This document shows positions 33,310 to 47,045 of a DNA stretch of 53,530 nucleotides, in pieces. The notes under the pieces are model-generated. The model made no database searches. It was not told the origin of the DNA and saw only the letters and a list, made by a program, of their open reading frames with translations. The translations under genes were made by a program, and so were the position numbers. Each line of letters begins with the position of its first letter. The first letter of the stretch is position 1. The DNA comes from Candidatus Colwelliibacteriota bacterium (lineage in GTDB: Bacteria > Patescibacteriota > Minisyncoccia > UBA6257 > Colwellbacteraceae), in assembly GCA_028718505.1 (NCBI GenBank), contig JAQULQ010000003.1:1-53530 (forward strand). The letters run 5' to 3'.

Positions 33310-33972
33310 ATGTTCAGATTCTTAAGTCCCATAGACACAATTTCCTCTCTAGCCCTTCTTGTGCTGGCCGTTTTTGGGCTGGTCCAATTATCTACCGCCC
33401 TTCGGCACAGTCTTTATTTAAATAGACGACACTTGATTATCTTGCGTATCGACCCGCGATTGGTGACCGACAGGATCGGAGACTTCTTGGGATCCATCCG
33501 TCCGCCTTTTACTTTTGAGGCAGCCGTTCATTATTTAGGCAGAGAGGTCAACTATTATGTTGTTTTGCCTCGGAAGAGAGCTCGGGAGCTCATGGCCCGT
33601 GAGGGTATAAATGAAGTAGATGATTATGATCTATTTCACCATGGAGGCGAACACTTGGGAGCATATTTGAAGGGAGGCGAAGTATGTCCGGCCATTGATG
33701 TTGGGAAAATAGATCTTTCGAAGGTGAATGAGATCGGAGAGGGAGTAGCGATCCAAATGGTCTTTGGGCGCCGGCGAGGCCGGAAATTGATGGCGAATTT
33801 CAGGATTCTAGTATCGGCTCCGTCTAATTATCAAGCAAAAGAGATTCTGGCAGCTATTAAACCTTCGTTCCCCGGATTCAATTTGATTGAATCCCGCAGC
33901 GACGATTTTATTAGTCGGGTTAACTTCAGAGAATACGACGCTAAACAGTCGACCTGTTGGGAGCCGGTTTAG
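33310..33972 (+). CDS. Hypothetical single-TM protein resembling N-terminal domain of CPR conjugation-type ATPases
   Basis: N-terminal TM, then 'PPFTFEAAVHYLGREVNYYVVLPRKRARELM'; similarity recalled from N-termini of TraG/VirD4/HerA-like proteins; inference. Confidence 0.35.
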   Translation: MFRFLSPIDTISSLALLVLAVFGLVQLSTALRHSLYLNRRHLIILRIDPRLVTDRIGDFLGSIRPPFTFEAAVHYLGREVNYYVVLPRKRARELMAREGINEVDDYDLFHHGGEHLGAYLKGGEVCPAIDVGKIDLSKVNEIGEGVAIQMVFGRRRGRKLMANFRILVSAPSNYQAKEILAAIKPSFPGFNLIESRSDDFISRVNFREYDAKQSTCWEPV

Positions 33973-33988
33973 AATATTCTCAGCCGAG

Positions 33989-34018
33989 TTGAAAGAAGAC
34001 GGCACCGCACGTTAGAAT
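33989..34018 (+). promoter_or_regulatory. Promoter for candidate ncRNA
   Basis: TTGAAA (33989-33994), 18-nt spacer, TAGAAT (34013-34018); predicted +1 about 34025. Confidence 0.55.
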
Positions 34019-34022
34019 GGGG

Positions 34023-34130
34023 ATGGAGCGGCATACAGGGCACTCACTCAACACAGAGGCTTAGGAGGCCACCATGCTGCTCCATATCACAGCCTTTAAC
34101 AGCCCTCGTTTTGTCGAGGGCTGTGATATT
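34023..34130 (+). ncRNA. Candidate structured RNA of unknown family
   Basis: 12-bp stem 34023-34034/34074-34085 (one G-U); 10-bp terminator-like hairpin 34099-34108/34115-34124; alternative 11-bp pairing 34084-34094/34119-34129; no long ORF. Confidence 0.5.
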
Positions 34131-34144
34131 CTTATAGTGAAGAT

Positions 34145-35074
34145 ATGCAGTTTGAAGAAAATGTTCCCTTGGCTGCTTATAGCAACCTGAAAATAGGCGG
34201 GCCCGCCAGATATTTCAAAGTAATCCGGAATAAAAAGGAGCTGATCGAATCTTTATATTTGGCTGAAGAAATGGACCTGCGCGTTTTTGTTTTGGGCGGA
34301 GGAACGAATATTCTTTGGAGTGACCGGGGGTACGATGGGTTAGTGTTAAAGCCGGAAATGGATTTTATTGTGAGAAATGGGAACGAACTTACCGTCGGCG
34401 CAGCTGTCCCCATGAAAGACATAGTCGGTTTTTCAGTAAAAGCAGGGCTAGCTGGCCTGGATTGGGCCGGGGGCCTGCCTGGCACTTTGGGCGGCGCAAT
34501 TTTTGGAAATGCCGGTTGTTTCGGGGGTGAAATGAAAGACTCTGTAGCTGAAGTAGAAAGCGTCGACCTGAAGAGCGCTGAATCTAAGAGAAGGAACAAT
34601 CAGGAGTGCGGGTTCGGATATCGCGACAGTGTCTTTAAGTCGGGAGGGATCAGCGAGATCATCGTCCAGGCAACTTTGCGCCTAGAAGAGGGGAATGCGG
34701 ACGACTTAACCAGAAGGGTTGCAGACGAGGAGAAGTACAGAGAAGAACATCAGCCTTTGGACAAACCGAATATAGGAAGCTTCTTCAAAAATGTGAGAGT
34801 TGAGGGATTGCCAAGGGTGCAAGTCGATCCCTATCGGCATACGCTCAAGACAGATCCGTTCCCAGTTATCCCCGCTGCCTATCTTATTAATGAAGCTGGA
34901 TTAAAGGGGGCTGCGTGCGGAGGGGCGGTTGTCTCTTCCAAACACCCCAATTTTCTGGTCAATAATGGCGGAGCGACAACCGCCGATTTTATAGCATTAA
35001 TAGAGCAGGTCAAAAAAGAGGTAAAAAGCAGAACTGGCATAGAGTTAGAGGAAGAAGTAAGGGTGATAAAATAA
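34145..35074 (+). CDS. murB: UDP-N-acetylmuramate dehydrogenase
   Basis: 'NLKIGGPARYF', 'LGGGTNILW', 'GLPGTLGGAIFGNAGCFGGEMKD', 'KPNIGSFFKN'. Confidence 0.95.
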   Translation: MQFEENVPLAAYSNLKIGGPARYFKVIRNKKELIESLYLAEEMDLRVFVLGGGTNILWSDRGYDGLVLKPEMDFIVRNGNELTVGAAVPMKDIVGFSVKAGLAGLDWAGGLPGTLGGAIFGNAGCFGGEMKDSVAEVESVDLKSAESKRRNNQECGFGYRDSVFKSGGISEIIVQATLRLEEGNADDLTRRVADEEKYREEHQPLDKPNIGSFFKNVRVEGLPRVQVDPYRHTLKTDPFPVIPAAYLINEAGLKGAACGGAVVSSKHPNFLVNNGGATTADFIALIEQVKKEVKSRTGIELEEEVRVIK

Positions 35075-44144: not shown

Positions 44145-44462
44145 ATGAATATTGATATAAAATCTTCGGGGCTGGAACTGACAGAGGCTCTTAAACAGTA
44201 TATAAATACGCGCATGAATTCCTTAGAAAGGCAGCTGCACCGATATGACCCCGCCGGCTTACGGATCGAATTCGAGGTAGCCCGGACCACTAAACACCAT
44301 TTGCACGGAGACGTTTTTTACGCCGAAGCCAATCTGGAGCTCCCCGGTAAAATGCTCAGGGCTACCCACGAAGCCTCTGATATCCGGGTGGCAGTGGATA
44401 AGATAAAAGACATTCTTCAGAGAGAGATAGAAAGACATAAAGAACAGCAAGAAGAGCATTAG
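44145..44462 (+). CDS. hpf: Ribosome hibernation promoting factor (short form)
   Basis: 'MNIDIKSSGLELTEALKQYINTRMNSLERQ...LHGDVFYAEANLELPGKMLRATHEASDIRVAVDKIKDILQREIERHKEQ'. Confidence 0.92.
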   Translation: MNIDIKSSGLELTEALKQYINTRMNSLERQLHRYDPAGLRIEFEVARTTKHHLHGDVFYAEANLELPGKMLRATHEASDIRVAVDKIKDILQREIERHKEQQEEH

Positions 44463-44465
44463 TCT

Positions 44466-47045
44466 ATGAGTCTGATAAAGGGTATCGGGAAGCGCCTCTT
44501 CTCAAGTTCTCCTAAACGCCCCAAGGAAATTGATGAGATAAACGCCCTCGAAGAGGAAATTTCTGGTTATAGCGACGAAGAGCTAAGGGGTGAAAGCCTG
44601 AAGCTTAAAGATGCTGCCATCGGCGGGCAGGTTTTGGATGAGCTGCTGGTGCGGGCTTTTGCTTTGGTTAGGGAGTCGGCTAAGAGACGTCTGGGACAGC
44701 GGCATTTCGACGTTCAGCTTTGGGGAGGATTGGTTATGCATCGCCACGGTATTGCCGAGATGGTGACGGGTGAAGGTAAGACTTTGGCTGCCACCGCCCC
44801 CGTTTATCTAAACGCCTTGAGCGGAAAAGGAGCACATGTGATCACGGTTAATGATTATCTGGCAAAACGTGATGCGGTTTGGATGGGGCAAATTTATCAT
44901 ACCTTAGGCTTAAGCGTGGCCTGCCTGATACATGACCAGGCCCTGTTTTACGATCCCGAGTGGAGATTAACAGGGGAAGAGGGGAAAAAAGCGGATGCAG
45001 AGAGAGATATAAAGGGAAGTTTTGAGGTGCGGGAAGAATTTCTCCGGCCTATTGAAAGGAAAGAAGCTTATCTGGCTGACATTGTTTACGGGACCAACCA
45101 CGAATTCGGCTTTGATTACTTAAGAGATAATCTTAAGTATTCTTCCGAAGAACAGGTCCAGCGCGAGCATAATTTTGCGGTCGTTGACGAGATTGACTCT
45201 ATTCTGATCGATGAGGCGCGTACTCCGCTCATTATTTCTATACCCGACAGCGGGTCTTCGGATTACTACCGTGTTTTTACAGGAGCAGTTAGACACCTGA
45301 CAGCAGAAGAAGATTATATCGTTGATGAGAAACTGCGCTCTGTTGAGATTACCGAGCCGGGTATAGATAAAATAGAGAAGAAAACCGGCATCAAAAACTT
45401 GTACGACGTGCATAATCTGCGCCTCGCTCATTACCTGGAGGCCTGTCTGAAGGCGCGGGCGCTTTATGAGAAGGATAAAGAATATGTTGTTAAAGACGGT
45501 GAGGTTATTATAGTTGACCAGTTCACGGGCCGTTTAATGTACGGACGACGTTACAGTGCCGGTATTCATCAGGCCATTGAGGCTAAAGAAGGTCTCAAGG
45601 TCCAGGATGAATCCCAGACGTATGCGCAAATTACTATTCAGAATTATTTCCGTCTTTACGCGAAATTAGCCGGTATGACCGGCACTGCTCAAACTTCAGC
45701 CGAAGAGTTCCATAAGGTTTATGGGCTGGAAGTGATCTCGGTCCCGACTAATAAGCCCCTTATCCGCAAGGATATGCAGGACGTCATTTACAAAAGCTTA
45801 AAAACGAAATATGAAGCTATCGTTAGAAATGTTCGGGAACGTCACGAGAAAGGCCAGCCAGTGCTGATCGGCACGGTCTCGATTGATAAAAACGAAGAGC
45901 TGTCGGGCGTATTGAAGAAAGCAGGTATTTCCCACGAAGTCCTGAACGCCAAGAATCACGAGCGCGAAGGCGCCATTATTGCTCAGGCTGGCAGATGGGG
46001 AGCTGTCACCGTTGCTACCAATATGGCAGGTAGAGGAGTGGACATCGTGCTTGGAGGTAACCCCCCCGACCCCGAAAAGGCCAAAACCATTAAGGGCTTG
46101 GGTGGATTGCATGTTATTGGAACTGAGCGCCACGAAGCTAGACGCATCGATGATCAGTTGCGGGGAAGGTCCGGACGTCAGGGAGATGAGGGCTCTTCTC
46201 AATTTTTCCTTTCTCTGGAGGATGATCTGATGCGTATTTTCGGGGGAGAAAGACTCCAGGGTCTGATGGAAAGGTTCGACGTTCCGGACGATATGCCTAT
46301 TGAGAACAAAATGGTCTCTCGGGCGATCGTGCAGGCCCAGAATAAGGTGGAGGGTTTCAACTTCGATGCACGCAAGCATCTTCTCGAATACGACGACATT
46401 ATTAACCGCCAAAGAAAAAACTTTTATGAGAAAAGACAGGCTTTTCTGCACGGTTTGGACGGCGACGAGACTAAGGTACGCGATTTTATAATGCAGGCTT
46501 TTATGAATCAGCTGGAAGTTTTCCGAAAGGCTGAGATGCCAGCAGAGCAAAGGAGGAGAATTTTGGCTGAGATATTGGCACCTACAGAGGATTTAGATAA
46601 ATTAGGCCCATTAGCCGAAGAGAAGCTTAAGCAAATCGAGGATGTACACCCCCTAGGTTATCAGCTTTTGGGGACTTTGGACACCTTATGGATGCATCAT
46701 TTGGAAGATATAGATGCTCTTCGGGAATCAGTGCGTATCCGAGCTTATGGGCAAAGAGATCCACTGGTCGAATACAGGCGGGAGAGCAAGGCTCTTTTTG
46801 ATAGGCTGAACGGTAATTTTGAGGCCTGGATCTTCACACGCCTTTTCCGCATTAAAACGGAAGGAGGGGATGAGTCTAATGACCGTCCGCGAGGCGTTCT
46901 CATTTCTTCGGCTGCACCGAACAGGGAAAAAGTGGGGCGTAATGATCCCTGCCCGTGCGGAGCCGTCAATCCCGAGACTGGCAAACCCTACAAGTATAAA
47001 AAATGCGGGCTGATAAATGCGCCCCATCACAAAGTTAAACGTTAA
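44466..47045 (+). CDS. secA: Preprotein translocase ATPase SecA
   Basis: 'RHFDVQLWGGLVMHRHGIAEMVTGEGKTLAATAPVYLNAL', 'VDEIDSILIDEARTPLIIS', 'ATNMAGRGVDIVLGG'; C-terminal zinc motif. Confidence 0.98.
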   Translation: MSLIKGIGKRLFSSSPKRPKEIDEINALEEEISGYSDEELRGESLKLKDAAIGGQVLDELLVRAFALVRESAKRRLGQRHFDVQLWGGLVMHRHGIAEMVTGEGKTLAATAPVYLNALSGKGAHVITVNDYLAKRDAVWMGQIYHTLGLSVACLIHDQALFYDPEWRLTGEEGKKADAERDIKGSFEVREEFLRPIERKEAYLADIVYGTNHEFGFDYLRDNLKYSSEEQVQREHNFAVVDEIDSILIDEARTPLIISIPDSGSSDYYRVFTGAVRHLTAEEDYIVDEKLRSVEITEPGIDKIEKKTGIKNLYDVHNLRLAHYLEACLKARALYEKDKEYVVKDGEVIIVDQFTGRLMYGRRYSAGIHQAIEAKEGLKVQDESQTYAQITIQNYFRLYAKLAGMTGTAQTSAEEFHKVYGLEVISVPTNKPLIRKDMQDVIYKSLKTKYEAIVRNVRERHEKGQPVLIGTVSIDKNEELSGVLKKAGISHEVLNAKNHEREGAIIAQAGRWGAVTVATNMAGRGVDIVLGGNPPDPEKAKTIKGLGGLHVIGTERHEARRIDDQLRGRSGRQGDEGSSQFFLSLEDDLMRIFGGERLQGLMERFDVPDDMPIENKMVSRAIVQAQNKVEGFNFDARKHLLEYDDIINRQRKNFYEKRQAFLHGLDGDETKVRDFIMQAFMNQLEVFRKAEMPAEQRRRILAEILAPTEDLDKLGPLAEEKLKQIEDVHPLGYQLLGTLDTLWMHHLEDIDALRESVRIRAYGQRDPLVEYRRESKALFDRLNGNFEAWIFTRLFRIKTEGGDESNDRPRGVLISSAAPNREKVGRNDPCPCGAVNPETGKPYKYKKCGLINAPHHKVKR

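Follow-up and report, generated by a model that had tools for sequence, protein, structure and literature searches.

Genomes across the class Paceibacteria (Parcubacteria) carry an undescribed family of structured RNAs, and the existence of this family is certain. It was restricted to the class and almost always occurred as one copy per genome. Conservation, covariation, single copy, class restriction, promoter enrichment, terminator enrichment and gene linkage were all observed. In our judgement the element is likely a structured RNA that is independent and acts in trans, its tip binding a protein or the ribosome; transcription of the copy described here, action in trans and the partner are inferred.

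The RNA locus in the window

The window, i.e. the whole stretch of DNA analysed, comprised 53,530 nt of a Candidatus Colwelliibacteriota genome. A first-pass annotation had proposed a promoter, a 12-bp helix with one G-U pair and a 3' hairpin upstream of murB, and direct reading of the sequence placed all three exactly where it had claimed (Table 1). TTGAAA-N18-TAGAAT was the best promoter-like site (10/12), with three sites in the stretch compared to 0.3 expected in shuffles. The folding energy of positions 34019-34135 was -49.4 kcal/mol, against -31.8 ± 3.5 kcal/mol in shuffles (z -5.0, 0/200). Here, the apical core consisted of an asymmetric internal loop, an inner stem and a conserved loop, the inner stem being formed by CUC (34043-34045) and GAG (34065-34067) plus the pairs G34038-C34070 and G34039-C34069. 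The only terminator-like site in the stretch was ACAGCCCTCG-TTTTGT-CGAGGGCTGT (34099-34124). A competing, longer form of this hairpin, in which AUAUCACAGCC (34084-34094) pairs with GGCUGUGAUAU, was favoured by RNAalifold in the three congeners.

Table 1 Coordinates of the RNA locus and linked genes in the window.
Feature	Position	Strand	Basis or remark
Promoter: -35 TTGAAA (33989-33994), 18-nt spacer, -10 TAGAAT (34013-34018)	33989-34018	+	Promoter-site search
Predicted ncRNA transcript unit, from main-stem start to T-rich stretch after second hairpin	34023-34130	+	Ends inferred, not mapped experimentally
Main stem, 5' arm AUGGAGCGGCAU	34023-34034	+	Covariation of homologous pairs
Main stem, 3' arm AUGCUGCUCCAU, one G-U	34074-34085	+	Covariation of homologous pairs
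Conserved apical core GGGCACUCACUCAACACAGAGGCUUAGGAGGCCACC	34038-34073	+	Class-wide consensus GCACUCACU.AA..ACA..A...UUGGAG
3' terminator-like hairpin, then TCTTAT	34084-34129	+	Kept in genus only, no covariation
murB, commonest downstream neighbour of the RNA family	34145-35074	+	Context survey
hpf (ribosome hibernation factor; matches 44145-44450), then secA (from 44481)	44145-44819	+	tblastn

The same annotation had credited murB with its own -10 box at 34133-34138. This box was weak and is not a conserved murB promoter, because the murB ATG of the congeners lies only 3-5 nt after the stretch. In the window, hpf-secA lay on the same strand as the RNA, ~10 kb further downstream. An ORF at 33310-33972 (+) encodes a protein of 220 aa whose N-terminal part includes a hydrophobic segment; it was conserved 5' of the RNA in much of the family.

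Occurrence of the RNA across the class

A DNA search of 60 relatives recovered a core that was 91-92% identical in both congeners and 73-81% identical in other genera of the family, whilst the DNA flanking it did not align. The homologues that would be expected of a real RNA were thus present in relatives, and covariance models extended their range. A model built from seven aligned sequences (R1) found one copy each in 20/27 genomes of the family. A pattern derived from the core occurred in 14 contigs of the GTDB collection, titled Parcubacteria, Jorgensenbacteria, Colwellbacteria, Paceibacter, Patescibacteria or 'bacterium'. The occurrence rose to 80/387 class genomes with 34 sequences in the model (R2) and to 146/377 with 99 rows (R3), of which 145 had exactly one match. 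More permissive scoring within the order gave exactly one match each in 33/40 genomes (27 families). More than half of the class genomes had no match, although further genomes continued to be gained as the models were widened iteratively (80 to 146).

No match fell outside the class in a phylum-wide sample of 287 genomes, where all 12 matches were in the same class (read as Paceibacteria from contig titles), and a plasmid search gave no match. The retention of one copy per genome across the whole class suggests an important housekeeping role.

A variable, covarying stem and a conserved tip

In the 99-row alignment, 88% of cells paired and 371 cells were changed on both sides. The covariation score of the main stem (0.603) exceeded that of shuffles (0.170; 0/500) and of slid structures (≤0.147), and compensatory changes in the main helix were likewise found when the 34-sequence alignment was tested. 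As the 99-row alignment had been fitted to a covariance model, an independent control was performed by swapping arms between genomes. Arm complementarity across the core averaged 34.9 for own pairs compared to 17.1 for swapped pairs, and 81/98 loci exceeded the 95th percentile of the swapped pairs. On comparative evidence, the main stem of the family is therefore proven by covariation. Both helices of the window copy had been expected to covary. Abundant compensatory changes bore this out for the 12-bp main helix; the 10-bp 3' hairpin showed none and was confined to the genus, and is therefore regarded as a terminator-like tail rather than part of the family core.

The main stem varied in length from 9 to 20 bp or more, reaching at least 20 bp in L045, L063, L068, L151 and L171 when individual extended loci were folded. 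The tip was the conserved part, with a family consensus of GCACUCACUnAA..ACA..A...UUGGAG(U/G)..ACC. This included a (near-)invariant GCACUC, followed by A(C/U)UnAA..ACA..A...UUGGAG(U/G)..ACC. Within the tip, the internal loop was asymmetric (GC-A / nnACC), the inner stem short ((A)CUC/GAG(U)) and the loop A-rich, at ~15-20 nt. The inner CUC/GAG stem was almost invariant, with U-A replaced by C-G in three sequences. Extended rods or a second core-like segment adjoined the RNA in L151, L171, L158 and L160 (e.g. GGCAACACUCUUUAAAAGAUUUUUUGGAGUUAACCGGCG in L160), as if the element were duplicated or nested there. Owing to its near-palindromic hairpin, one locus, L133, also gave an antisense match, an artefact that was taken out of the context counts manually.

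Two other readings of the element were rejected. A short reading frame starting from ATGGAGCGGCAT... in the window was not kept (G020 has ATGAGCGGCAG...) and paired changes dominate, so a coding function was discarded. Mimicry of a Shine-Dalgarno sequence through the GGAGG of the tip was also discarded as the main reason for conservation, because the GGAG lies within a helix, the U-A to C-G change in three relatives gives GGGG/CCC, and the base after GAG varies. Complementarity between the tip and 23S (partial), 5S, tmRNA and RNase P RNA was limited to runs of chance length; the 16S gene was absent from the assembly.

Transcription signals accompany the RNA

A TATAAT-like box (at least 5/6) began 7-18 nt upstream of the stem in 59/98 loci, compared to 15/98 in a control stretch. 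Intrinsic-terminator-like hairpins occurred within 100 nt downstream of the RNA in 24/98 loci (6.2 expected), a T-run directly followed the main stem in 26/98 (background 14%), and the terminators after the RNA in L157 and L162 were perfect. In the window, the second hairpin takes the part of the terminator. The attributes of an independent structured ncRNA gene, namely a covarying structure, its own promoter and its own terminator, were thus all met, in the absence of transcript data. The view of the first-pass annotation that the element stands alone holds class-wide, on the strength of these promoters and terminators and of loci without a co-directional gene behind the RNA; it remains unproven for the window copy, which a co-directional murB follows after 60 nt.

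Gene neighbourhood and the possibility of a cis-acting leader

The nearest mapped downstream gene in the 98 loci was murB in 58, secA in 14, hpf in 11 and a glycerate kinase in one (G004). By this measure, murB, hpf or secA was the next gene downstream and on the same strand in 83/98 loci, a few being more than 1 kb away. The recurrent orders were RNA-murB-hpf-secA, which was the commonest, and RNA-hpf-secA and RNA-secA, both in other families.

This linkage makes a cis-regulatory leader of the murB-hpf-secA operon the main rival of a trans-acting RNA. The element would then be a riboswitch or protein-bound attenuator, and its tip would recognise a ligand or protein and, through termination or initiation, control the gene that follows. 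The element shares the strand of murB, hpf or secA, which usually begins 5-150 nt further downstream; a promoter stands directly before the element and, in some loci, a terminator follows it. These are also features of the small riboswitches and attenuators found at operon heads, promoter-proximal hairpins with an invariant tip that often precede a gene, and in size and pattern (variable stem, invariant tip) the RNA resembles small aptamers. In G017 the murB ATG abuts the hairpin stem, so co-transcription is probable there; some genomes thus probably transcribe the RNA together with murB.

However, the downstream gene was inconstant, and a leader of murB would always lie upstream and co-directional. 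This was not the case, as murB was the nearest downstream gene in 58/98 loci and was divergent in five (L142, L154, L157, L165 and L171), lying there on the opposite strand and pointing away from the RNA. In L132, L141, L154, L157, L162 and L165, no long same-strand ORF preceded the next gene, which faces the RNA, leaving no close co-directional gene. In those genomes, with murB facing away or nothing on the same strand behind it, the RNA is therefore an independent gene. The congener G002 retained the RNA (91% identity) despite a murB only 32% identical to that of the window, its neighbours being 60-65% identical. At L003/L022, the G002 murB, at 355 aa, exceeded in length those of the two other species of its genus; judged from these sequences, it looks to have been replaced in place. 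The divergent murB beside a conserved RNA, together with the loci in which murB faces away or the next gene faces the RNA, argues that the RNA is not tied to any single gene behind it. Moreover, outside one genus there was no sign of a conserved terminator/antiterminator switch, and the RNA was single copy even where murB, hpf and secA were not adjacent. We consider a cis-acting leader unlikely as the general explanation, but such a role in some genomes is not excluded.

Comparison with known RNA families

The first-pass annotation had also taken the RNA to be undescribed and without SRP or 6S hallmarks, and the database searches agreed on both counts. In Rfam (release 15), the window had nothing at the gathering threshold (only sub-threshold noise up to E = 5), no family matched at 26 loci in relatives (noise only, E up to 1-2), and no SRP RNA or 6S match coincided with the locus. 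Our literature search, which left out the majority of subscription papers and preprints, found no description of an RNA of this sort in Parcubacteria/Patescibacteria. On these searches, the Paceibacteria RNA belongs to no known RNA family, although its general kind, structured bacterial ncRNA, is known. Rfam models recovered tmRNA, RNase P RNA, 5S, 23S and tRNAs from the genome of the window, and neither SRP RNA nor 6S RNA above threshold. A marginal selenocysteine tRNA match on contig C6 of this tiny genome (L090:16167-16252, -; 49.4 bits, cut-off 47) could represent an unusual tRNA.

The best functional parallel is the raiA motif RNA or ModT (RF03072) of Bacillota and Actinomycetota. This structured RNA is widely conserved and transcribed on its own, its molecular function is unclear, and it often lies beside hpf/raiA (raiA neighbours it in 66% of cases) and has 8 paired regions and 2 pseudoknots (PMC11706538). 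Both RNAs are single, independently transcribed and structured, and the description of a free RNA beside hpf/raiA fits the Paceibacteria RNA too, hpf being nearest downstream in 11/98 loci and present somewhere in the surveyed stretch in many others. It is nevertheless very unlikely that the RNA is a relative of ModT, drastically reduced, or a functional substitute for it: RF03072 was in the searched library and matched neither the window nor the 26 relatives even at relaxed E, the phylum differs, and the Paceibacteria RNA is a single ~65-nt hairpin that also neighbours murB and secA. Adjacency to hpf is a resemblance, not membership.

We give equally little credence to a minimal 6S-like RNA that binds RNA polymerase. 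The element is a single-copy stem with an internal bulge or bubble, and no 6S RNA was found above threshold in the genome of the window or in 144 class genomes. Yet RF00013 had no match at the RNA locus, the Paceibacteria RNA is a third of the size at only ~65 nt, and its invariant tip is unlike the bubble of 6S RNA, a sequence-variable promoter mimic. Sub-threshold 6S-like candidates (20-33 bits; cut-off 46.4) were seen at L188 (G000:C1:43047-43133, +) and L185-L187, and these might be genuine divergent Paceibacteria 6S RNAs. Such candidates lay elsewhere in the genome of the window, G067 and G157, all of which also carry the Paceibacteria RNA.

A highly derived SRP RNA, suggested by a single-copy, housekeeping-like rod with a conserved tip near secA and by the lack of RF00169 matches in 40 relatives (0/40 at E ≤ 1; controls 13/14), is scarcely tenable and already contradicted by the absence of Ffh/FtsY, since the genome of the window had no Ffh (TIGR00959; controls 14/14), 114 class genomes had no real SRP-type GTPase domain (PF00448; best 25 bits, mostly short P-loop fragments), and the RNA has neither sequence similarity to SRP RNA nor a GGAA-type tetraloop or AGCAG core. 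As far as the genome of the window, the 114 class genomes and the 40 relatives were searched, the class seems to lack the signal recognition particle altogether; no paper stating this absence was found in the literature search.

Proposed role of the RNA

Under the preferred reading of an independent trans-acting RNA, the transcript would be made from its own sigma-70-type promoter, with the predicted +1 at the base of the main stem. The covarying stem would serve as a structural handle that displays the strongly conserved tip, and this tip may be where a conserved protein or a ribosomal partner binds. The RNA would act in trans as a single-copy housekeeping RNA. Its putative partner most plausibly functions in ribosome hibernation or secretion, a proposal made because hpf and secA are persistent neighbours and the class seems to have lost SRP. 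A bolder version, which we regard as doubtful, is that the RNA is an essential part, specific to the class, of a ribonucleoprotein that associates with the ribosome, contains Hpf and/or SecA or else an unknown protein, and serves protein targeting or ribosome storage in SRP-less bacteria.

Paceibacteria are among the largest groups of uncultured, ultra-small bacteria. To our knowledge, few RNAs are kept at one per genome across a whole class (SRP RNA, 6S, tmRNA, RNase P and ModT). Here, an uncatalogued RNA defined by strong covariation occurs in a class where SRP appears lost. The family gives transcriptomic and pull-down experiments a precise target, can serve to mark Paceibacteria genomes and provides a lead on the way ribosomes and secretion are organised in SRP-less cells.
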